Shown one piece after another: positions 12,976 to 55,757 of a stretch of DNA of 64,000 nucleotides. The translations under genes and the position numbers were made by a program. The notes under the pieces are model-generated. The model was not told the origin of the DNA. It was given only the letters and a program-made list of their open reading frames with translations, and made no database searches. Position 1 is the first letter of the stretch. Every line of letters starts with the position of its first letter. Source of the stretch: Arthrobacter sp. TMP15 (lineage in GTDB: Bacteria > Actinomycetota > Actinomycetes > Actinomycetales > Micrococcaceae); NCBI RefSeq assembly GCF_039529835.1, contig NZ_CP154262.1, positions 62,001 through 126,000 on the forward strand, read 5' to 3'.

Positions 12976-14393
12976 TACTTTCCTCCTTCTTGGTATGACT
13001 GCGCAACAGGCAGGGCATATTGCTGAGCCTGGTTCAGTGCTTCATCAACTGATTTCTGCCCGGCAATGGCGGCAGAGATTTGCTGGCTGACCCGGGTGCC
13101 CAGGTCTTGGAATTCGGGAATTCCCACAAATTGCAGCCCCGGATAGGGCACGGGATTGACCATGGAGGTATCCTGCTTGGCGCCATACATGGCATCCAGG
13201 GTGGGCTTGGCGTAGGCCTTGGCCACGGCGGCATATTCTGGGATTTCATAGGTAGATTGACGGCTGCCAGGGGGGACGCGTTCCCACCCAATCTTCTTGC
13301 CCACTAACTTGATGTAGTCCTTGTTGGTCATCCAAGAGATGAAGTCCCACGCTATGTCTTTATGCTTAGTGGTAGTTGGGATAGCCAATGACCAGCTGTA
13401 AAGCCAGCCGGCCGATTCCGTATTTTTCACGGGAGCAGGGGCATACTGTGACTTACCGGCAACCAGGGACGATGCGGGGTCTTCAATGCTGGACACCATG
13501 GCCGTGGCGTCGTACCACATGGCGGCCTTGCCTTGGCTGTAGCGGGTGATGCAGTCGCCGTAACCGCTGGTTGCTGCGCCGGGCTGGCCGGCATCGTGGA
13601 GTAGGTCTACATAGTCTGTGACGGCGGCGTTGACCTCAGGGGAATCCAGCCTGGCGTTCCAGTCCTTATCGAACCACTGGCCGCCGTAGGTGTTGATAAC
13701 TGTGCCCAGGGGTGCCATGACTTCGCCCCAGCCGGCTAATCCGCGCAGGCAGATGCCGGCGAAGTCTTTAGAGGGGTCATTGAGTTTGCGCGCAATTGCG
13801 CCAATCTGGTCCCATGTGGGGTGTTCCGGCATGGTGATGCCAGCCTCCTTGAACAGGTCCTCACGGTAGACCAGGAAGGATGATTCCCCATAGAAGGGTA
13901 CCGAGTACATGTCATCCTGATAGCTCAGGGCGTCCTTGATGGTGGGGATGAAGTCGGCAGTGTCGTAGCCTGCGGTGGCATCGGCGAGAGGCTGGAGGTT
14001 CTCGATCCAGCCATTTTTGGCCCACATTTCGGTTTCATAGTTGGAGATCATAACCACGTCGAATTCGCCCCCACCGGTAGCCACCGATGCTGTAATTTTG
14101 GCCCTGGCTTCATTCTCGGGCAGGGTCACGAACTTGACATTGACATTGGGATGTTTGGATTTGAAGTCATCCTGCAAGGAGACAGCGTCCTTCATCTGCG
14201 GGTTCGCCACAATGGCAACAACAAGGGTGTCCTGAGCGGAACCCTTTGGCGCGCAGCCGCCTAAGGCCAGGGCGGCTGCCGCAGCAACGGCCAAAAATTT
14301 CGCTACCCGGTGGCCCGAGCGGTGGTGATTGTGACTGTCGCTGTGACTGACGCGTGGGGATGCCTTCGGGGCGCGGAATGGGGGGAACTTCAT
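12975..14393 (-). CDS. polyol ABC transporter substrate-binding lipoprotein
   Basis: A 472-residue family 1 solute-binding protein. The N-terminus is unusually long before the hydrophobic core (His/Ser-rich, residues 15-30), then the lipobox LGGC places the lipid anchor at Cys47. A start at a later codon cannot be excluded. The sequence is of the type found with SmoE/MtlE sorbitol-mannitol systems. It is the first gene of the operon binding protein-permease-permease-dehydrogenase, and its promoter region carries repeated GCTCATTTGAGC sites facing the divergent SorC-type regulator. Confidence 0.83.
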   Translation of the reverse strand: MKFPPFRAPKASPRVSHSDSHNHHRSGHRVAKFLAVAAAAALALGGCAPKGSAQDTLVVAIVANPQMKDAVSLQDDFKSKHPNVNVKFVTLPENEARAKITASVATGGGEFDVVMISNYETEMWAKNGWIENLQPLADATAGYDTADFIPTIKDALSYQDDMYSVPFYGESSFLVYREDLFKEAGITMPEHPTWDQIGAIARKLNDPSKDFAGICLRGLAGWGEVMAPLGTVINTYGGQWFDKDWNARLDSPEVNAAVTDYVDLLHDAGQPGAATSGYGDCITRYSQGKAAMWYDATAMVSSIEDPASSLVAGKSQYAPAPVKNTESAGWLYSWSLAIPTTTKHKDIAWDFISWMTNKDYIKLVGKKIGWERVPPGSRQSTYEIPEYAAVAKAYAKPTLDAMYGAKQDTSMVNPVPYPGLQFVGIPEFQDLGTRVSQQISAAIAGQKSVDEALNQAQQYALPVAQSYQEGGK

Positions 14394-14413
14394 TGGTCAC
14401 TCTCAATCTCGTT

Positions 14414-14497
14414 GCTCATTTGAGAACATGATCCTGCTCATTTGTTAAGTGACTCTAGTCATATATACTCATTTGAGCAATAGCAATCGCTCAAATG
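14414..14497. promoter_or_regulatory. SorC-type operator cluster between polyol importer and regulator
   Basis: The divergent intergenic region holds four copies of one motif: GCTCATTTGAGA at 14414-14425, GCTCATTTGT at 14436-14445, ACTCATTTGAGC at 14467-14478 and the reverse GCTCAAATG at 14489-14497. The last two form a 9-bp inverted repeat with a 10-base spacer. The same word recurs before the mannitol-type dehydrogenase gene at 19704-19735, so it is very probably the operator of the adjacent regulator. Confidence 0.75.
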
Positions 14498-14518
14498 TAA
14501 TTCTCAGGAAGGCGCACA

Positions 14519-15472
14519 GTGCCCGACATTTCTCATGAAGAGCTGCTCGCCCGTATTGGGCGGGCCTACTACCTTGAAAGTCAATCCAAGGTTGAAATCG
14601 CCGATGAGCACGGAATCTCGCGGTTTCAGGTGGCACGTTTCCTTGATGAGGCGCGTGCGGCTGGGATTGTTCACATCGAAATCCGAATGCCCGGAGCGCC
14701 TGTAACAATTGACACGGAGGCGCTCGCAGCAACTCTCGGTCTTCGGCGGGTAGTGGTGGTTAAGACAGTTGATGACGAATTTCAACAGCGTGACCTGCAG
14801 GCCCATGCAGTGGCTGAGGAGTTGATGCGAGAGGCACGGACCGGAATGAGCGTGGGTATCTCGTGGTCGCGGACCCTGGACCTGGCGGCAAGACACGTGC
14901 TGGAGCTACCCCGCTGCAACATTGTCCAACTTGCAGGGGCGCTACCCGTTCCTGGTGGGGGCAATCCCTTGGACCTCATTCAGCGTTTGGGGCGAGTTGG
15001 TGGGGGGAAGACCTGGCCCATGTGGGCTCCGCTGGTGGTTGATAGCGCAGCTACAGCATCAGGTCTGCGCCGCCAACCGGAAATTGCCGATGCCATGCGG
15101 AAGGCAGATTCATTGGACCTTGCGGTTGTGGCCATCGGTGCCTGGGCGCCAAACCTTTCGACCGTCTGGGACCGTGTGGACAATGCCGTGCGCCAAGACG
15201 GGATCGATCAGGGTGCGGTCGCAGAATGTTCCGGCCGGCTCATAGCTGCAGACGGAACGGCCGTGGCGGCTGAACTCGATGCCCGGGTTCTCTCTGTCAC
15301 ATTAGAGCAGCTTCAGCGTACGCCCAAGGTTATTGCCGTTGCTCAGGGAGCTGTGCGTGCCGAGGCTGTGCGTGCTTGTCTGGGGGCTGGGATCATCCAC
15401 ACCCTTGTAGTGGATGAATCACTGGCTCATGCCCTGCAGGCTGCCGGCGATAATGATGTGGTGTCCGCATGA
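14519..15472 (+). CDS. SorC/DeoR-type sugar-binding transcriptional regulator
   Basis: A 317-residue regulator. The first ~55 residues contain a helix-turn-helix (SKVEIADEHGISRFQVARFL), and the rest is the SorC effector domain that binds a sugar phosphate (GMSVGISWSRTL region). The start is GTG with AGGAAGG six bases upstream. It overlaps the xylulokinase gene (ATGA), so the effector may be xylulose 5-phosphate or a related phosphate. Repeated motifs upstream and before the dehydrogenase at 19664 define its likely regulon. Confidence 0.87.
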   Translation: MPDISHEELLARIGRAYYLESQSKVEIADEHGISRFQVARFLDEARAAGIVHIEIRMPGAPVTIDTEALAATLGLRRVVVVKTVDDEFQQRDLQAHAVAEELMREARTGMSVGISWSRTLDLAARHVLELPRCNIVQLAGALPVPGGGNPLDLIQRLGRVGGGKTWPMWAPLVVDSAATASGLRRQPEIADAMRKADSLDLAVVAIGAWAPNLSTVWDRVDNAVRQDGIDQGAVAECSGRLIAADGTAVAAELDARVLSVTLEQLQRTPKVIAVAQGAVRAEAVRACLGAGIIHTLVVDESLAHALQAAGDNDVVSA

Positions 15473-16917
15473 GCGCCGCCGCTCAATCAGCTGCCAACGC
15501 AGACGCCCTCCCCGTGGGGGACCTGGTGGTGGGGGTTGATTCCTCTACGCAGTCCTGCAAAGTCGTGGCAGTTGATCTGGCCACGGGGTCCCAAGTGGCC
15601 ACCGGCGCCGCGGCACATCCAGATGGGACGTTCATTGACCCACACCTGTGGACATCGGCACTAGAGGTCGCCTGGGAAGAGGCAGGCATTGCAGCTCTGG
15701 GACAGCGGGTTGCCGGAGTCTCAGTTGCCGCCCAGCAGCACGGAATGGTGGGTGTTGACGAGGACAACGAACCAGTCCACGATGCCTTGCTGTGGAACGA
15801 TGTGCGCAGTGCAGAGGAAGCCGAGGCTATGGTTTCTGCGCTGGGCGCCAATGAGTGGATGGAGGCGGTCAATTTACTCCCCGTAGCTTCCTTTACCTTG
15901 ACCAAACTGGCGTGGTTGACAAAAAACTCTCCAGAGGCCGCTGCGCGTCTAAAAACCGTCGGCTTACCGCACGATTGGTTGAACCTCCAACTGTCAGGGG
16001 CATGGAGCACGGATCGAAGTGATGCCACGGGCACAGCTTATTTTGATGCGTTGAGCAATGAATATCACCCGGAGCTGCTGAAGAGGTTCTTTGGCCGGGT
16101 TCCGCTGCTCCCTACTGTGCTTGCGCCTAACGCAACCGCTGGAATGCTGCTGCCGCGCTGGGGGGCAGGTGCCGCCGTCGTAGGTGCCGGTATGGGGGAC
16201 AATGCTGGTGCGGCCCTGGGTCTGGAACTGGAGCCGGGGGAGATCGTTGTTTCGATCGGAACCTCCGGAACCGTATTTACCGTCTCAGAGGACCCAGTGC
16301 GCGATATATCCGGCCAACTTGCAGGATTTGCGGACGCTACGGGACGGCACCTGCCGCTCCAGGCGACCATCAATGCGGCCCGTGTCATGGTGGCAGGTGC
16401 TGCCATGCTCGACGTGGACTTGGCCGAGTTTGACCGGCTCGCGCTCGCGGCCGCACCCGATGCGGGAGGGATGACGCTGCTGCCCTATCTCGATGGCGAA
16501 CGGACGCCCAATCTGCCCGATGCCACAGGATCCATGGTTGGCCTGACCCGCGCCAATATGACCCCCGAAAATATGGCCAGGGCTTCCGTGCTGGCCGTGT
16601 TGAACTCATTGGCGGATGCGCTGGACTCGCTGGCCTCCTTCAATGTTCCTGTGAAGCGCGTCCTCCTTATTGGTGGTGGGGCCAAGTCCCGGGCGCTGCG
16701 TGAGGCGGCAGCAACTGTATTCGGTGTGCCCGTGGATGTTCCCGAGCCGCGAGAATACGTGGCTCTGGGTGCGGCTAGGCAGGCGGCGTGGGCGGCAACC
16801 GGGGTATTGCCAGTGTGGGGCCGGCGGATCGAGGAGTCCTTTATGCCCCACGGCGAATGGGGCGCCGTGGTGCGTGAGCGATACGTTGCCGCGCGGAAGG
16901 CTGTGTACGGGCGGTAG
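15469..16917 (+). CDS. xylB: xylulokinase
   Basis: A 482-residue FGGY-family kinase. The N-terminal phosphate loop is GVDSSTQSCK, the substrate region has QQHGMV, and the second domain has GMGDNAGAALG, SIGTSGTVF and a GGGAKS adenine-side motif. The QHGMV and LWND segments favour xylulose over glycerol or ribulose. It makes xylulose 5-phosphate, completing a polyol route: import, oxidation to xylulose or another ketose, phosphorylation. It overlaps the regulator gene by four bases. Confidence 0.9.
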   Translation: MSAAAQSAANADALPVGDLVVGVDSSTQSCKVVAVDLATGSQVATGAAAHPDGTFIDPHLWTSALEVAWEEAGIAALGQRVAGVSVAAQQHGMVGVDEDNEPVHDALLWNDVRSAEEAEAMVSALGANEWMEAVNLLPVASFTLTKLAWLTKNSPEAAARLKTVGLPHDWLNLQLSGAWSTDRSDATGTAYFDALSNEYHPELLKRFFGRVPLLPTVLAPNATAGMLLPRWGAGAAVVGAGMGDNAGAALGLELEPGEIVVSIGTSGTVFTVSEDPVRDISGQLAGFADATGRHLPLQATINAARVMVAGAAMLDVDLAEFDRLALAAAPDAGGMTLLPYLDGERTPNLPDATGSMVGLTRANMTPENMARASVLAVLNSLADALDSLASFNVPVKRVLLIGGGAKSRALREAAATVFGVPVDVPEPREYVALGAARQAAWAATGVLPVWGRRIEESFMPHGEWGAVVRERYVAARKAVYGR

Positions 16918-16941
16918 TGGTACTGTTCCACAACTGGTGCG

Positions 16942-17015
16942 CGCCGACGGCGTGCCATCGTGGCGAGGGCCCCTGAAGTTACACACGCCCCCGCCAGCAT
17001 GGCACGCCGTCGGCG
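16942..17015. repeat. long hairpin upstream of AbiEi-domain gene
   Basis: Two perfect 17-base arms (16942-16958 and 16999-17015) contain the core GGCGTGCCA. Inside them a second paired stretch (16961-16970 with 16987-16996, one mismatch) extends the stem. It can act as terminator of the regulator-xylB unit, though no T-run follows. The core is shared with the palindrome at 18078-18147 on the other side of the next gene. Confidence 0.75.
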
Positions 17016-17091
17016 GTAAAGGGCGCGGGACTTATCCACAGTTCGTTGGAGTGCCATTGAATTCAGCGCATGACAGGTCAAGGCTTACAGG

Positions 17092-18063
17092 ATGGAAACC
17101 TCAGAACTTGCCATAAAAATTGACCATGATTGGCCGTCCGGCACCATCATCGTGACTAGTGCAGAGCTTGCCGGTGTTGGTTTGAGCCCACGTTTGCTGG
17201 CGGCAGCCGTGAAATCGGGGTTATTGCTGCGGATCCGTCATGGCGCCTACACCAAAATGGCACAGTGGCAAGGGAAGTTTCCATCAGAAAAAGATGCTCT
17301 GCGCATCGCGGCACACTTCAAAGCGACGCGGGGCAACTCCCTCTACAGTCACGTCAGTGCAGCGCGTTTGTTGGGGCTCTATGTATGGAACGCAGACGCG
17401 ATCATCCATGTCACAACACCTTCTTCGTGCTCAGCAACAAGTGCAGTGCCCGGGGTGAGGGTGCATCGCCGGGCCCTAGAGGCCGGGGCGCACCAGCAGA
17501 TCCGGCACCCCAGGCTCGGAACTGTCAGGGTGACAAGGCTGGAGCAGACCATTGTGGACTGTGCCCGTACGGAGTCATTTGTCACGGCCGTGATCATCGG
17601 CGATTGTGGGCTGCACAATGGGGCCAGCCTCGAGGTCATGCACCAGCTGTTGAGCATGCTGACTGGCCGGCGGGGAGTGCGTGCAGCACGGAGAGTTCTT
17701 GAGGCACTGAGCATTGGTTCGGAGTCTGCAGGTGAGACCCGCCTGCGGCTGGCAGTGGCGGAGATGGACGTTCCCCAGCCGGAATACCAGGTGTGGTTGA
17801 GGGCTGCGGGAAACAATTACCGGGTGGGCGGTGCCTGGCGTGACATCAAATTAGCCTTGGAGTTTGACGGAAAAACCAAATACTTCGCCTACAAGCGCAC
17901 GGAGGATGCTATCTACGAGGAGCGTCTTCGCGAGCGCGAACTCATGGAGGAGGGCTGGAGCTTTCTGCGGGTGGAGTGGAAACATTTAGCCGAACGGGAA
18001 TGGTTGGAGCGCCGAATTCTGGCCTCACGGGAGTTAGCTCGGCGCCGAAACGGCCTCCAATGA
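17092..18063 (+). CDS. AbiEi-type antitoxin-domain / DUF559-like protein
   Basis: A 323-residue protein. The first ~80 residues look like the N-terminal winged-helix domain of AbiEi-type antitoxins (SAELAGVGLSPRLLAAAV, then RIRHGAYTK). The C-terminal ~90 residues resemble a DUF559/Vsr-like nuclease fold: the patterns KLALEFDGKTKY and WSFLRVEW place Glu and Asp in the expected beta-strand. Such proteins are common and often multicopy in Micrococcaceae. No AbiEii toxin gene follows, so this is not a full AbiE system. The gene stands alone between two strong hairpins. AGG directly before the ATG gives a poor ribosome site, so the start is uncertain. Function unknown. Confidence 0.7.
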   Translation: METSELAIKIDHDWPSGTIIVTSAELAGVGLSPRLLAAAVKSGLLLRIRHGAYTKMAQWQGKFPSEKDALRIAAHFKATRGNSLYSHVSAARLLGLYVWNADAIIHVTTPSSCSATSAVPGVRVHRRALEAGAHQQIRHPRLGTVRVTRLEQTIVDCARTESFVTAVIIGDCGLHNGASLEVMHQLLSMLTGRRGVRAARRVLEALSIGSESAGETRLRLAVAEMDVPQPEYQVWLRAAGNNYRVGGAWRDIKLALEFDGKTKYFAYKRTEDAIYEERLRERELMEEGWSFLRVEWKHLAEREWLERRILASRELARRRNGLQ

Positions 18064-18077
18064 GCCGACGGTTTCAT

Positions 18078-18147
18078 CCGAGGGCGTGCCAAACCGGTGA
18101 GGGCGTATGAAATTTCATACGCCCTCACCGGTTTGGCACGCCCTCGG
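18078..18147. terminator. 70-bp perfect palindrome between convergent genes
   Basis: Each base from 18078 to 18112 pairs with its partner from 18113 to 18147: 35-base arms, no spacer and no mismatch. It sits between the AbiEi-domain gene and the convergent dehydrogenase gene and would end transcription from both sides. It contains GGGCGTGCCA, akin to the core of the hairpin at 16942-17015. A perfect palindrome of this length is unusual. Confidence 0.85.
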
Positions 18148-18182
18148 CGAAGGAGGCGGGCGAAGGGGGTGGAAGTTGCCGG

Positions 18183-19664
18183 CTACCGATCCAGCGCCAC
18201 GAGCTCTTCAACAGCGGCCCGGGCACCACGGGTGTGCAGCGTGTTAAGGGTGCGCAGGTAGGCGTCGGTGAAGCGGGTGTTGTCCACAAGGTCGCCAAAA
18301 ACGTCGCGGTTGCGCAGAAACGCCAGCTTGTCCTCATGTTGTTGCGCCGCGGCCGCCATCAAGGGCACCTTCAGGCGGTCAACCACTGTGATGGGAGCCC
18401 CGGATTCGTCCGTCCCTTCGGCATACCGAGCCCAAGAGGCAACGATGCCGGCGGAACGGGCAATCACGCCGTCGTTCTCTAGATTGAGGTTGATGACAGG
18501 GACGAGCCATTTGGGAATCCTGTCCGAACTCTCCGCGCAGAGGCGAGTCAAGGTGTCCCGGACGTGTTCGTTGGCAAAACGCTCAATGAGTGTGCGCTTG
18601 TACAACGGCAGGTCAACCCCGGGCAGGGGGGAGAGCGCCGGTGTGCCCTCAAGGTCCATGTAATCGAGAAGGAACTGCACAAATAGCGGATCCTGGCAGA
18701 CCTCGTGCGCGTAGGTGTAACCCGCCAATGTGCCGAAATAGCACAGGGCCTGATGGCTTGCGTTGAGTAGGCGCAGCTTCATGAGCTCATAGGGTTCAAC
18801 GTCATCAACTAGCTGTACGCCAGCGTCCTCATATGGGGGGCGGCCGAGCGTGAAATCATCCTCCAGGACCCACTGCTCAAAGGACTCGCACACTACTGGC
18901 CACTGGTCCGCAATGCCGAATTCCTTGGCAATGGCGCTTCGATCCTCATCCGTGGTGACAGGGGTGATTCGATCCACCATGGAGTTGGGGAACAGTACAT
19001 TTTGACGCATCCAGTTCGCCAAAGCTGGGTCCCGCAATTCGGCAAACGCCGTAAACATCTTCTTTGCCACGTCGCCGTTGCCAGCAATGTTGTCGCAAGA
19101 CATGACGGTGAATGGTGCCAGGCCCCGAGCGCGACGGCGGGAGAGGGCTTCCGTGACGAGGGCGAAGGTGGTGCGCGGGGCAGCGTTAGGGGCAAGGTCA
19201 TGAACAATGTCAGGATTTTCGGCGTCAAACTCGCCGGTGACGTGATGGAAGTTGTAGCCGCCCTCGGTCACTGTCAATGAAACGATTCGAGTGTCAGGGG
19301 TGGCCATTTTCTCAATAACAGCCTCGGGGTTGGCCGGAGCGAAGAGATATTCGGTGATTGATCCGATCACTCGGGCCTCGCGCCGGCCGTCTGGGTGCTT
19401 CAACAGCAGCGTGTACAGGCAGTCCTGTGCCGCCATGACCTGTGCCATTTTCTCATCATGCGGGAGCACTCCCACTCCGCAAATACCCCAATCAAGGGCT
19501 TTCCCGGAGTTCAGCAACCTGTCGATATACATGGCTTGGTGGGCCCGATGAAAACCACCAACGCCAAAGTGAACAATCCCGGTGCTGACTGCACTGCGGT
19601 CATATGTGGGCACAGCAACAGATTCCGGTAGTCCGGCGAGGCTCTGCGCATTGAGTTGGACCAT
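18183..19664 (-). CDS. mannitol dehydrogenase-family polyol dehydrogenase (mannitol 2-/arabinitol 4-dehydrogenase)
   Basis: A 493-residue long-chain polyol dehydrogenase. The N-terminal nucleotide fold shows VHFGVGGFHRAHQA and the active site has KLRLLNASHQAL with the family Lys, Asn and His. These enzymes oxidise D-mannitol to fructose or D-arabinitol to D-xylulose with NAD+, without metal. With xylulokinase in the same regulon, arabinitol is an attractive substrate, but sequence alone does not separate the two. Two SorC-type motifs lie 40-70 bp before the start. Confidence 0.88.
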   Translation of the reverse strand: MVQLNAQSLAGLPESVAVPTYDRSAVSTGIVHFGVGGFHRAHQAMYIDRLLNSGKALDWGICGVGVLPHDEKMAQVMAAQDCLYTLLLKHPDGRREARVIGSITEYLFAPANPEAVIEKMATPDTRIVSLTVTEGGYNFHHVTGEFDAENPDIVHDLAPNAAPRTTFALVTEALSRRRARGLAPFTVMSCDNIAGNGDVAKKMFTAFAELRDPALANWMRQNVLFPNSMVDRITPVTTDEDRSAIAKEFGIADQWPVVCESFEQWVLEDDFTLGRPPYEDAGVQLVDDVEPYELMKLRLLNASHQALCYFGTLAGYTYAHEVCQDPLFVQFLLDYMDLEGTPALSPLPGVDLPLYKRTLIERFANEHVRDTLTRLCAESSDRIPKWLVPVINLNLENDGVIARSAGIVASWARYAEGTDESGAPITVVDRLKVPLMAAAAQQHEDKLAFLRNRDVFGDLVDNTRFTDAYLRTLNTLHTRGARAAVEELVALDR

Positions 19665-19703
19665 GGTGGCGCTCCTTTGGCGAAGTGAGGTTCACCCATT
19701 GTA

Positions 19704-19735
19704 TCAAATGAGCGCTTTGATTTGCTCAAATGAGC
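19704..19735. promoter_or_regulatory. SorC-type operator pair upstream of polyol dehydrogenase
   Basis: TCAAATGAGC occurs twice in direct orientation (19704-19713 and 19726-19735, 22 bp apart, two helical turns). The second is part of GCTCAAATGAGC. This equals the motif set at 14414-14497 and places this gene under the same regulator. Confidence 0.7.
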
Positions 19736-19849
19736 ATGGCGCGTTGTTGCGCCGGAATGTGAGGTTGGACTGGTTGGGCTGCATAGGCCATTTCTGGGGA
19801 CTATATTGGCCAGTATCTAACGCAGGACTATTTTCAGCAGGAGGACAAC

Positions 19850-21598
19850 GTGGCCAAGGAACTTGCCAGTCAACTTATTGAACAACTGCAGCTTGCCGGA
19901 GTGCGGCGCATTTACGGGATTGTGGGCGACAGCTTGAACCCACTGGTGGATGCCGTGCGCAAGACAGGTGGCTCCGCCAACGGAGGTATTGACTGGATCC
20001 ACGTCCGGCACGAGGAAGCAGCCGCATTTGCAGCTGGTGCGGAGGCGCAGCTGACAGGGGAGCTGGCCGTGTGTGCCGGATCGTGCGGTCCAGGTAACCT
20101 GCACCTCATGAATGGGTTGTACGACGCCAACCGGACGGGTGCTCCCGTCCTGGCCATTGCCTCACACCTGCCCAGTGTGCAAATTGGCAGCGGGTTCTTC
20201 CAGGAAACTCATCCGGACAGACTCTTCGGGGAATGCTCAGTATATTCGGAGCTCATCAGCACCGCAGAGCAGGCGCCACGGGTTATGCGTAACGCCATCT
20301 CACATGCCGTGGGGCTTCGAGGCGTGGCCGTTGTGACTTTGCCGGGTGACATTGCCAGCCTCCCTGCCACTGCACCAACCCCACAGTGGCGTCCGCTCAA
20401 AGCGGCAAGCATGGTCCCGGCTCCCGAAAGCGTCACGGAGCTTGCGGACGCTATCAACCAAGCAGAAAAGGTGGCCATCTTTGCTGGCGCCGGTGTGCAA
20501 GGTGCGCACGCGGAGGTTATGGCACTTGCTGAACTGATCAATGCCCCAGTTGCCCACAGCCTGCGGGGGAAGGACTTCATTCAGTACCAGAACCCCTTCG
20601 ACATTGGCATGACAGGCCTGCTGGGTTACGGCGCAGCAGCTGAGGGTATTGAAGGTGCTGACCTGCTGATTTTGCTGGGCACCGACTTCCCCTACGATCA
20701 GTTCCTGCCCGATTCGCGCACAGCACAAGTTGACCGTGCCCCTGAGCATTTGGGCAGGCGCACAGACGTTGACATCGCCGTCCACGGGGACGTGCTGCCC
20801 ACGCTCCAAGCCTTGATGCCGCTCTTGACTAATAAGAAGAATTCCAAGTTCTTGGATCAAATGTTGAAAAAGCACGACAAGCTGATGAACAAGGCGGTTG
20901 GTGCATACACCCGCAAGGCAGAGAAACTTGTGCCAATTCACCCGGAATACGCGGCCTCGCTACTGGATGAAATCGCCGCCGACGACGCCATCTTTACTGC
21001 CGACACCGGCATGTGCAATGTGTGGACAGCCCGTTACATCAACCCCTTGGGCACGCGCAGACTGATTGGCTCATATCTGCACGGCTCCATGGCCAATGCC
21101 TTGCCCCAAGCCATCGGTGCCCAGAGCGCATACCCACAGCGGCAGGTCATCTCCGTCTCCGGTGACGGAGGGCTGTCCATGCTGCTGGGTGAATTGCTCA
21201 CTGTTGCTGCCCATAAATTGCCCGTCAATGTTGTGGTGTTCAACAACTCCACTTTGGGCATGGTGAAACTGGAAATGCTGGTTGACGGCCTACAGGACTT
21301 TGGTGTGGACGTTCCTGACGCCAACTACGCCGGGGTTGCTGCGGCCCTTGGCTTCCATGCGATCCGCGTCACCGACCCGGCCAAGATAGCCGACGCGTAC
21401 AAGGCCGCCTTCGCCCACAACGGGCCCTCTCTGGTGGAACTGATCACCGATCCCAATGCGCTGTCCATACCGCCAAAAATCAAGGGCGGCCAGGTGTTGG
21501 GTTTCGCCACGGCAATGTCGAAAATCGTGCTAAATAAAGGTGCTGGTGAGGCTGTCAGCATGGCCCGGTCCAACCTGCGCAATATCCCGCGCGGCTAA
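19850..21598 (+). CDS. poxB: pyruvate dehydrogenase (quinone) PoxB
   Basis: A 582-residue thiamine-diphosphate flavoenzyme. The N-terminal domain has YGIVGDSLNP and the catalytic Glu region VRHEEAAAFAAG; the C-terminal domain carries the cofactor motif GDGGLSMLLGE ending near VVFNNS. The combination is typical of PoxB, which oxidises pyruvate to acetate and CO2 and passes electrons to quinone at the membrane. The start is GTG with AGGAGG eight bases upstream. It is a single-gene unit, divergent from the polyol dehydrogenase. Confidence 0.92.
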   Translation: MAKELASQLIEQLQLAGVRRIYGIVGDSLNPLVDAVRKTGGSANGGIDWIHVRHEEAAAFAAGAEAQLTGELAVCAGSCGPGNLHLMNGLYDANRTGAPVLAIASHLPSVQIGSGFFQETHPDRLFGECSVYSELISTAEQAPRVMRNAISHAVGLRGVAVVTLPGDIASLPATAPTPQWRPLKAASMVPAPESVTELADAINQAEKVAIFAGAGVQGAHAEVMALAELINAPVAHSLRGKDFIQYQNPFDIGMTGLLGYGAAAEGIEGADLLILLGTDFPYDQFLPDSRTAQVDRAPEHLGRRTDVDIAVHGDVLPTLQALMPLLTNKKNSKFLDQMLKKHDKLMNKAVGAYTRKAEKLVPIHPEYAASLLDEIAADDAIFTADTGMCNVWTARYINPLGTRRLIGSYLHGSMANALPQAIGAQSAYPQRQVISVSGDGGLSMLLGELLTVAAHKLPVNVVVFNNSTLGMVKLEMLVDGLQDFGVDVPDANYAGVAAALGFHAIRVTDPAKIADAYKAAFAHNGPSLVELITDPNALSIPPKIKGGQVLGFATAMSKIVLNKGAGEAVSMARSNLRNIPRG

Positions 21599-23406: not shown

Positions 23407-24468
23407 ATGAAGCGAGAATTTTTGATGATGCAACTCCGAGGGGGCATGCTCACGCTTGTTGTTGCTGCCGCAGTGGTGGTTCCGCTTGCAACTGCTACCG
23501 GATCCTCTGCACATGGTTGGGTGACCGATCCACCTAGCCGGGCAGAAAATTGCGCAGCCGGAACGACAAGCTTTGATTGCGGCAAAATCAAGTATGAGCC
23601 CCAAAGCGTTGAAGCTCCTAAGGGCTCCCTGAAATGCAGTGGCGGAGCGCCGGAGTACACCGTTCTTGATGATGAAACTAAGCCGTGGCCACGGAAGAAC
23701 ATTGCTAGCACCATCGACATCAAGTGGAACCTAACCGCTTTGCACGCAACACAAAGTTGGGAATACTTCCTGGATGGCACGCTGGTTAAGACAGTGGATG
23801 CTCACGGTGCCAAACCAACCGCCGTCCTCTCTCACAGGCTCACAAATTTACCCCGTGGCCAACACACCATCTTGGCGCGCTGGAATGTGGCCGACACGCC
23901 CATGGCTTTCTACAGCTGCCTGGATGTCAACGTAAAAACTGATGGGTCGCTGGATCCGAGCACGGCACCAACCGAACCTGCGGTGACTCCCACACCCACC
24001 GAAACGCCCACCCATCCCCCGGCAGGGGTATGCGAGGCAGCCGAATGGAAGGCTGGCTCGTCATATAGTTCCAGTAGTCAAGTGAGCTACCGCGGCAGCA
24101 TCTGGCGCGCCAAATGGTGGACTCTTGGAGAAGCTCCCAGCGTCATCACCAGCAACGGGGCTTGGGCCTATGAGCGAGTCTGTGGCGCAACGACGCCCAG
24201 TGCCACTGCCACTGCTACTGCCACCGCGACGCCCAGTGCCACTGCCACTGCTACTGCCACCGCGACGCCCAGTGCCACTGCCACTGCGACGCCCACGGCC
24301 AATGTGCCAGGCTGCAGGTCCATCCCATGGGTACCCGGAAATATTTACGCCGGAGGAGACACTGTTTCCCGCAACGAGCACAACTGGTCTGCCCAATGGT
24401 GGACGCAGGGCGATGAGCCCGGCAGAGGTGACCCGTGGGGTGTCTGGAAAGACCTCGGGGCCTGCTAA
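23407..24468 (+). CDS. secreted AA10 lytic polysaccharide monooxygenase with two chitin-binding modules
   Basis: A 353-residue exported enzyme. A signal peptide (residues ~1-35) ends at SSA, so the mature protein begins with His36 (HGWVTDPPSR), the copper-ligand His of AA10 enzymes. The second copper ligand is His113 (NLTALHATQSWEYF). The catalytic domain spans ~36-178. A Pro/Thr linker leads to a CBM5/12-like module at 210-260 (WRAKWWTLGE), a TPSATATATATA-repeat linker, and a second such module at 303-353 (WSAQWWTQGD). It should cleave crystalline chitin oxidatively outside the cell and fits with the NgcEFG importer. No strong ribosome site precedes the first ATG; later in-frame ATGs at residues 7-8 are possible. 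Confidence 0.9.
   Translation: MKREFLMMQLRGGMLTLVVAAAVVVPLATATGSSAHGWVTDPPSRAENCAAGTTSFDCGKIKYEPQSVEAPKGSLKCSGGAPEYTVLDDETKPWPRKNIASTIDIKWNLTALHATQSWEYFLDGTLVKTVDAHGAKPTAVLSHRLTNLPRGQHTILARWNVADTPMAFYSCLDVNVKTDGSLDPSTAPTEPAVTPTPTETPTHPPAGVCEAAEWKAGSSYSSSSQVSYRGSIWRAKWWTLGEAPSVITSNGAWAYERVCGATTPSATATATATATPSATATATATATPSATATATPTANVPGCRSIPWVPGNIYAGGDTVSRNEHNWSAQWWTQGDEPGRGDPWGVWKDLGAC
24191..24298 (+). repeat. 36-bp tandem repeat encoding Thr/Ala linker
   Basis: A 36-bp unit beginning CGACGCCCAGTGCCACTG recurs at 24191, 24227 and 24263, the third copy shortened. It lies wholly inside the AA10 gene and encodes the 12-residue TPSATATATATA linker repeat, so linker length could change by slippage in frame. 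Confidence 0.9.
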
Positions 24469-55071: not shown

Positions 55072-55245
55072 CTGTAGGCAACGGAGCATCCGTGGAGCGC
55101 AGACGATTACTATTGGCGGCGTAACAGGAGGGTAAGTTCGGGCACGTTTAGGCCAAAGTGCAGGCATTTGTGGCTAAAGTAGGGGACAAGATTGGTGCTG
55201 GTGCGCAAAGCACCGGTGTTTCGGAGCAACCAAAGGATGAAGCAA

Positions 55246-55671
55246 ATGGCTGGAATCATCATCGTCGGCGTCGACGGCAACACAACGTCCATGAAGGCTG
55301 CACGCGTTGCGGCAGAACTAGCCAAATCACTTGGCTACACCTTGCGCGTGGTTACAGCATTTGGCGAAGACCGAACCGAGAAGGTTTCCATCGGCAACGA
55401 CGAGTGGTTCCTCTCCACGGCCGATGAGGCTGAGCGCGTTGCACAGCGCGTTGCGGAAGAGCTGAAGATTAGCGGTGTCAAGACCGAGTACTCCTCCGCC
55501 TTGGGCAAGCCTGCCGACGTCTTGATCGAAGAGGCCACCAAGCTCAAAGCCAAATTGATCGTTGTTGGCAACGTGCGCATGCAGGGCTTGGCCCGCGTTC
55601 TGGGCTCCGTGGCGAACGCCGTCTCACATAACGCCCCGTGCGATGTGTACATCGTCAAGACTGACGGCTAA
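55246..55671 (+). CDS. universal stress protein UspA family
   Basis: A 141-residue protein. I choose the ATG at 55246 since AAAGGA stands eight bases before it; a longer frame to 55192 adds a non-conserved piece. IIVGVDGNTTSMKAARVAAELA at the start and VVGNVRMQGLARVLGSVANAV with the nucleotide loop G-x2-(R/M)-x9-G match ATP-binding UspA proteins. It is followed by a very strong palindrome. Confidence 0.9.
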   Translation: MAGIIIVGVDGNTTSMKAARVAAELAKSLGYTLRVVTAFGEDRTEKVSIGNDEWFLSTADEAERVAQRVAEELKISGVKTEYSSALGKPADVLIEEATKLKAKLIVVGNVRMQGLARVLGSVANAVSHNAPCDVYIVKTDG

Positions 55672-55689: not shown

Positions 55690-55757
55690 ACGCGGGGGTG
55701 GTTATTACTATTCGCAGTGCGTAGACGCACTGCGAATAGTAATAACCACCCCCGCGT
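55690..55757. terminator. 68-bp near-perfect palindrome terminator
   Basis: 33-base perfect arms (55690-55722 and 55725-55757) with a two-base loop, followed after one base by TTGTTTTTT. It lies between the UspA gene and a convergent gene remnant, and should end transcription from the UspA side. Its length is far more than needed. Confidence 0.9.

Follow-up and report, generated by a model that had tools for sequence, protein, structure and literature searches.

A gene for a predicted AbiEi-nuclease fusion and its dispersed palindromes in Arthrobacter sp. TMP15: a possible two-part mobile system

The gene and its two flanking palindromes

The window analysed here is a 64,000-nucleotide stretch (C1:62001-126000) of the 3.7-Mb genome of Arthrobacter sp. 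TMP15, which is labelled G000 in the comparisons below. Between two hairpins in this window lies a single long ORF of the nuclease family described below, and the unit formed by the gene and its hairpins has an FGGY sugar kinase gene and a mannitol dehydrogenase gene as its neighbours (Table 1).

Table 1. Features of the palindrome-flanked unit and of a second palindrome family, in window positions unless a contig is named
Feature	Position	Strand	Description
Upstream palindrome	16942..17015	.	Imperfect, 74-nt; 60-nt family core 16949-17008; outer motif GGCGTGCCA at both ends
Nuclease gene	17092..18063	+	323-aa; residues about 1-207 AbiEi-like (winged helix, antitoxin fold), about 208-318 a nuclease domain like those of Vsr and homing endonucleases
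Codon 246, GGC (Gly)	17827..17829	+	Probable loss of catalytic residue
Downstream palindrome	18078..18147	.	Perfect, 70-nt, 35-bp arms; 60-nt family core 18083-18142
Second-family solo palindrome	55690..55757	.	60-nt core 55694-55753; cognate gene G000:C1:3410238-3411221

The left hairpin has 29-nt arms that are 90% complementary, with the outer 17 pairs perfect, and the 35-nt arms of the right hairpin are 100% complementary without a spacer. Folded as single-stranded DNA, the two gave z-scores of -7.4 and -17.4 respectively, and none of 200 dinucleotide shuffles was as good for either. Over 72 nt the palindromes are 75% identical, a likeness that extends well beyond GGCGTGCCA. The sequence-only reading of this stretch had described two exceptional hairpins with a common core around the gene, and both parts of that description were confirmed. 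The word GGGCGTGCCA, taken with at most one mismatch, is not over-represented in the window (nine occurrences, 10.4 expected); the special feature is the paired, 60-nt-spaced form of the word and not the word itself. Rfam had no matches at window positions 14000-20000. Away from the unit, an ORF at 23407-24468 was noted that, judged from its translation only, resembles a secreted chitin-binding protein with a long Ala-Thr-Pro repeat linker.

The unit protein matched the Pfam model AbiEi_4 at 29.3 bits, above the cut-off of 25, and REase_MTES_1575 at 21.6 bits, below that model's own cut-off of 38.2. Across 50 aligned proteins, REase_MTES_1575 was matched by 33, AbiEi_4 by 31 and DUF559 by nine. 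PADLOC matches were to AbiEi models only, PHROGs gave no match for the unit protein, NCBIfam gave none for five family members, and a search of PDB sequences returned just two weak matches that look unrelated. An AlphaFold2 model built on the 50-sequence alignment had a mean pLDDT of 91 and supports the presence of both an AbiEi-like and a nuclease domain. In this predicted structure, residues 5-207 aligned with the AbiEi antitoxin of S. agalactiae (6y8q; Z 12.0, rmsd 7.5, 189 aligned), and residues 213-318 found their closest structural match in the catalytic domain of the homing endonuclease I-Bth0305I (3r3p; Z 12.9, rmsd 2.2, 96 aligned of 97), with Vsr (1cw0) at Z 9.1. The joining of an AbiEi-like winged helix to a Vsr-type nuclease fold, proposed earlier from the letters alone, is in this way supported by the predicted fold, and the neighbouring genes bore out that there is no AbiEii partner beside it.

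Residues E211, E215, E257, D259 and K263 were invariant in all 50 aligned rows. Position 246 is Asp in 48 of the 50 proteins, Asn in one and Gly in the window protein. On the sequence alignment, the candidates for the EDxHD catalytic residues are the five invariant positions and the nearly invariant D246; the His was not identified among them. The nearest named relative found, among the best 80 of 296 homologues, is Arthrobacter sp. H35-MC1, whose unit protein is 99% identical; in this strain of the same species codon 246 is GAC (Asp) and one other residue differs from the window protein. The change D246G is therefore, as judged from these sequences, recent and probably inactivating. We take D246 to be a metal-binding residue by analogy with Vsr and, because it is Gly here, the window's allele may be dead.

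Palindrome pairs among homologues and their common layout

Repeats matching between the regions upstream and downstream of a gene, in both orientations, were scored at 108 homologous loci (7 from the window genome, with further sets of 29, 12 and 60 fetched), which are related and not independent. Sixty of the loci were hand-picked down the homologue list, with some short fragments skipped, and were drawn from the matches listed. The 156 control genes came from 20 arbitrary 18-kb stretches of 11 genomes. At 30 bits, a matching pair of palindromes was present at 63 of the 108 loci and at none of the controls; at 40 bits the counts were 46/108 and 0/156, and a simple arm score of 14 on both sides gave 33/108 and 1/156. 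Some pairs at 25-40 bits, and one above 40 (L197), look low-complexity. Two loci have faulty coordinates (L324, in the second-family check, and L361, in the phylum-wide draw), and the locus of G098, a strain of the same species, scores just 27 bits, its downstream palindrome being garbled beside a run of N. Two close Arthrobacter-type loci, L238 and L248, are titled Sporosarcina beigongshangi REN13, a species label that looks wrong.

The window genome has at least eight family members. Four of the seven tested lie between palindrome pairs (the window gene, L030, L032 and L034), each with quite different sequences, and the other three (L031, L033 and L036) are among the 45 homologues without a pair at 30 bits. 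The expectation that hairpins flank the gene elsewhere held in so far as 63 loci have the pair, and failed for these 45. A pair was likewise present for 49 of the best 80 of the 296 named homologues, a set that overlaps the 108 loci. In a phylum-wide draw, relatives of the family occurred in 50 of 198 genomes, and 13 of the 30 loci listed had a pair, some of them outside the class and two of them counted before. Across Actinomycetota the enzyme is thus widely associated with palindromes, although at 30 bits no pair was seen at 45 of the 108 loci. The two flanking copies were direct in 33 of the 63 pairs and inverted in 12, with 18 ties (p 0.0025).

The sequences of the palindromes differ between gene lineages and their layout is common, each arm holding direct copies of a motif 19-20 bp apart; the core containing GGCGTGCCA is one palindrome family among many. 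Averaged over 33 families, chosen to share fewer than two 8-mers, the self-match of the arms was 0.484 at 19 bp and 0.358 at 20 bp, compared with a mean of about 0.27 in shuffles and a largest value in 200 of 0.33 and 0.336 respectively. The best offset was 19 or 20 bp in 19 of the 33, and the arms of the window family had a self-match of 0.64 at 19 bp. A typical palindrome therefore holds about four copies of a lineage-specific motif. The arms also co-vary. In the window family, measured on 55 of its 78 copies, 17 variable positions were 79% complementary against 57.6% expected, the largest of 1000 shuffles reaching 64%. Among 34 genes with pairs, the palindromes of two genes were rarely alike once the proteins fell below 60% identity, and the partial correlation of palindrome likeness with the protein domains (0.154 for the wHTH, 0.222 for the middle and 0.198 for the nuclease) did not single out one domain as the part that recognises the palindrome.

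Dispersed palindromes and their alternation with the gene

Copies of the window palindrome also occur singly, without the gene. The pattern GRCGTGSCA-N36-48-TGSCACGYC was found 3-13 times in each of the 10 genus genomes with an orthologue of at least 60% identity, and 0-2 times in the 13 without one, which carry only more distant relatives of the unit gene (rank test over the 23 genomes, p 8.7e-7). The reversed pattern, used as a control, matched once in the 23 genomes. Each of the 10 genomes has exactly one copy of the gene at this identity. That such hairpins might stand equally at the ends of many ordinary genes was not what was found, as none of the control genes has a pair and only three solo copies lie at the ends of ordinary genes in the window genome. 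The refuting conditions set with the sequence-only reading therefore turned out largely in its favour. By a rough reading from longest ORFs, which is wrong at least for L099 and L100, 20 of 52 solo palindromes lie between convergent genes and four between divergent genes; seven are inside a longest ORF and most are extragenic. Several solo sites are common to different species.

The tie between copy number and gene was not cleanly repeated on a second family in the 23 genomes, where it worked only in part. The solo palindrome of this family in the window is 19 nt past the stop of an ORF (55192-55671) that by eye was named universal-stress-like, and its cognate gene, about 3.3 Mb away in contig coordinates, is flanked by two copies of the palindrome. 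The second-family pattern has five copies in the window genome, four in G098, five in G011 and none in the 20 other genomes. Thirteen of those 20 hold orthologues of the second-family gene at 54-69% identity; eight of the 13 have their own, differently spelled palindrome pair, two have none and three have untestable flanks. The second-family members in G011 and G012 contain internal stops. In G011 this is an internal TGA (L323), and five palindromes of its type persist there.

Within the window family, inner cores were more alike within a genome (0.82) than between genomes (0.70), with 0 of 2000 label shuffles as extreme. At the 15 site pairs common to two genomes the cores were 0.60 alike (0.69 in the nine pairs whose outer types are equal), the comparison values being 0.636 for different sites in different genomes (n=853) and 0.765 for different sites in one genome (n=128). 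In the two closest shared-site pairs, with flanks about 93-95% and 88-89% identical, the palindromes were 97% and 84% alike and the cores 1.0 and 0.9; over short times the copies are therefore inherited. The outer type differs in six of the 15 pairs, and all six involve G001. This genome and G012 have mtlD genes that are 93.7% identical and unit proteins that are only 66.6% identical, and the unit protein of G001 is 86.8% identical to that of G019. Three solo sites are common to G001 and G012, and at each the palindrome carries GACGTGGCA in G001 and GGCGTGCCA in G012, as it does at the genome's own gene. The type of a palindrome thus tends to go with the gene of its genome and not with the site. 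It is likely that the gene was replaced in one of the two lineages and that palindromes of the new gene's type came to stand at the solo sites; this pattern would result whether old sites were rewritten or palindromes were newly inserted into the same preferred gaps.

At three loci among the genus genomes, the full unit alternates with a solo palindrome. The first is the locus of the window, between the kinase and dehydrogenase genes, where palindrome, gene and palindrome are found in G000, G008, G001, G019, G015 and G098 (there with the garbled copy). In G012 and G014 the same gap has one palindrome and no gene, with a half-palindrome remnant beside the solo in G012, and in G016 it has a half-palindrome remnant, both remnants being read by eye; in G020 there is no palindrome of the window family and another kind is present. 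The earlier suggestion that the gene interrupts the polyol cluster as an insertion is supported by this comparison. The second locus, beside an SNF2-type helicase gene, has the full unit in G009 and G003 and a solo in G000 and G015, and the palindrome meets the neighbouring stop codon identically in G000, G009 and G003. The third has the full unit in G012 and a solo in G015 and G009. This alternation suggests that the gene moves between palindromes. Comparison of the gene tree with the mtlD tree did not resolve the direction of the moves, the gene tree being open at its base. The solo at C1:426004 of the window genome was checked for recent insertion between strains of the same species, and G000 and G098 alike have the palindrome there. 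By eye, the gap of this solo (L124-L153) holds different palindromes in many other genus genomes, which would suit gaps of this kind being landing sites for a range of families.

A candidate mobile system and its rivals

On balance, we favour the reading that the nuclease gene and the dispersed palindromes form a two-part mobile system, in which the palindromes are recognised by the enzyme as its targets. The flanking pairs, their common layout, the copy-number tie, the alternation at three loci and the match between palindrome and gene type are observed, and the folds are predicted; from these we infer binding, cutting, copying driven by repair, the direction of moves and selfishness. The AbiEi-like half would bind the family motif, of which each 60-nt palindrome has about four copies (two direct ones per arm, the arms being inverted), and would probably do so as a dimer that places one protomer on each arm. 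The domain resembling I-Bth0305I and Vsr would then cut the palindrome. Repair from another palindrome would rewrite the cut one, and the copies in a genome would be homogenised; where the template was the gene-bearing locus, a solo palindrome would become palindrome, gene and palindrome, and recombination between the flanking copies could delete the gene again to leave a solo. The likeness of copies within a genome, the co-varying arms, the alternation of gene and solo and the homing-endonuclease fold would all be explained if the nuclease cuts its own palindromes and repair copies them. The target on which I-Bth0305I dimerises is nearly 60 bp long (PMC3943268), and the 60-nt length of the palindrome core matches this. 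The earlier idea that the hairpins are targeted by the gene's own nuclease fits these sequences.

Several observations count against homing. Both flanking palindromes are intact, and an occupied locus should therefore stay cuttable. Copying should raise the number of genes, yet every one of the 10 genomes has a single copy. In the window protein the probable catalytic Asp is replaced by Gly. The 45 loci that lack a pair at 30 bits and the incomplete repeat of the copy-number tie on the second family also weigh against this reading. As regards rewriting, the likeness of palindromes in the two closest shared-site pairs and the restriction of unlike outer types to comparisons with G001 count against it, and independent insertion into preferred gaps could explain why palindromes at shared sites are unlike.

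The single copy is what would be expected if the enzyme instead excised the gene at its flanking palindromes, by cut-and-paste or through a circle, so that the donor closed to a solo and the gene inserted elsewhere with no extra copies made. Solo palindromes at sites that are occupied by the gene in other genomes are also in keeping with this, as is the excess of direct over inverted flanks, which integration of a circle into a solo would give; direct flanking copies suit both integration at, and excision from, a solo palindrome. The version in which the palindrome is cut at its centre, after which the outer halves should match each other, was not supported in the nine orthologues compared (outer-outer 0.735, the lowest of six comparisons). 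Cut-and-paste alone also leaves the likeness of solos within a genome unexplained, and we consider it unlikely.

The half remnants at the first locus in G012 and G016, together with the internal stops in the second-family members of G011 and G012, would suit a history of loss only, in which an ancestor had the gene at several loci and its lineages lost all but one by recombination between flanking palindromes, leaving solos behind. This would require the ancestor to have had at least three copies at once and every one of the 10 genomes to have kept just one of them, and the matching palindrome types in G001 and G012 would go unexplained; such a history is improbable.

The leaning of solos towards gene ends in the rough ORF reading, and the sites common to different species, would also be expected of bidirectional terminators or nucleoid sites that are bound by the protein and kept by the host, with the nuclease domain in a maintaining role. 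Against this, genomes that lack the close orthologue have only 0-2 copies, so that the host can apparently do without them; the palindrome sequence varies between lineages, and nuclease residues 211, 215, 257, 259 and 263 are invariant in every aligned row. A domesticated regulator or terminator is, on this evidence, quite doubtful.

That the gene is a passenger among REP-type palindromes moved by a Y1 transposase is hardly credible even though passages of PMC3116915 give the same overall picture of dispersed palindromes with a single-copy gene beside its own type, as the palindrome type here goes with the nuclease gene and Y1_Tnp (PF01797) is absent from the window genome and from 21 of the 23 genus genomes, including nine of the 10 with the orthologue (it is present in G016 and G019, and matched in five of 14 control genomes).

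The two-part system that we favour has likenesses to several known ones. In REPIN-RAYT systems a genome has several types of dispersed palindrome, and each type has one cognate gene, single-copy and close to palindromes of that type; co-evolution has been proposed (passages of PMC3116915 and PMC3733652). The same arrangement of palindrome types and single-copy genes was found here. The enzyme here is an AbiEi-Vsr-like nuclease, whereas RAYT is a Y1/HUH transposase. The palindromes here are 60-70 bp long and repeat their motif directly within each arm at a distance of 19-20 bp. The GTAG tetranucleotide that passages of PMC3733652 place at one end of the repeat is, by eye, missing from the 60-nt cores of the window family, and a locus that has the gene in one genome can have a solo palindrome in another. 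RepRanger (PMC12306157) includes an Arthrobacter genome among its REP counts, and the words RAYT, nuclease and transposase are absent from its text.

With EDxHD homing endonucleases such as I-Bth0305I, the unit shares the fold of the catalytic domain and a long candidate target, nearly 60 bp and bound by a dimer in the case of I-Bth0305I (PMC3943268, in passages). The gene here, however, is outside any intron or intein, there are several candidate targets per genome, and the DNA-binding half is AbiEi-like. The presumed palindrome target flanks the gene and stays intact, in the window and at the 63 loci with pairs, whereas a homing gene normally disrupts its own target. AbiE type IV toxin-antitoxin systems share the AbiEi antitoxin fold (6y8q) and the PADLOC AbiEi models, but there is no adjacent gene for an AbiEii nucleotidyltransferase toxin and a nuclease domain is carried instead. 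The unit was filed under none of REPIN-RAYT, AbiE and homing endonucleases because a defining feature of each is missing. Vsr, DUF559 and REase_MTES_1575 are alike in fold and in profile matches among the aligned proteins; MTES_1575 is described as the Vsr-REase domain of a large HEPN-fusion protein in passages of PMC3710099 which do not mention palindromes. The unit also differs from an insertion sequence in having no recognised transposase (AbiEi and REase models only in Pfam, nothing in PHROGs). Among the papers listed in searches of an open-access library, none links these nucleases with palindromes in its title or the opening of its abstract.

The sequence-only reading had suggested a self-contained mobile or defence unit; the mobile part is supported and the defence part is not, as PADLOC matched AbiEi models only and nothing else pointing to defence was found. 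In these soil bacteria related to Arthrobacter, the unit looks like an undescribed kind of selfish genetic element. It may even be, as we tentatively propose, that Actinomycetota carry a large undescribed class of such elements, in which a fusion of AbiEi and a homing endonuclease homes between dispersed 60-bp palindromes with a lineage-specific motif and a common layout, and a newly arrived allele converts old landing sites by cutting and repair. If this is true, the REPIN-RAYT way of life arose also from a wholly different enzyme, and some orphan AbiEi and DUF559-type genes are there for mobility, not for defence. With protein and target sequences paired in many lineages, a DNA-recognition code could then be derived, and the family would supply candidate nucleases that act on long targets. 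Some of the orphan hairpins that stand at gene ends in high-GC genomes would also be accounted for.
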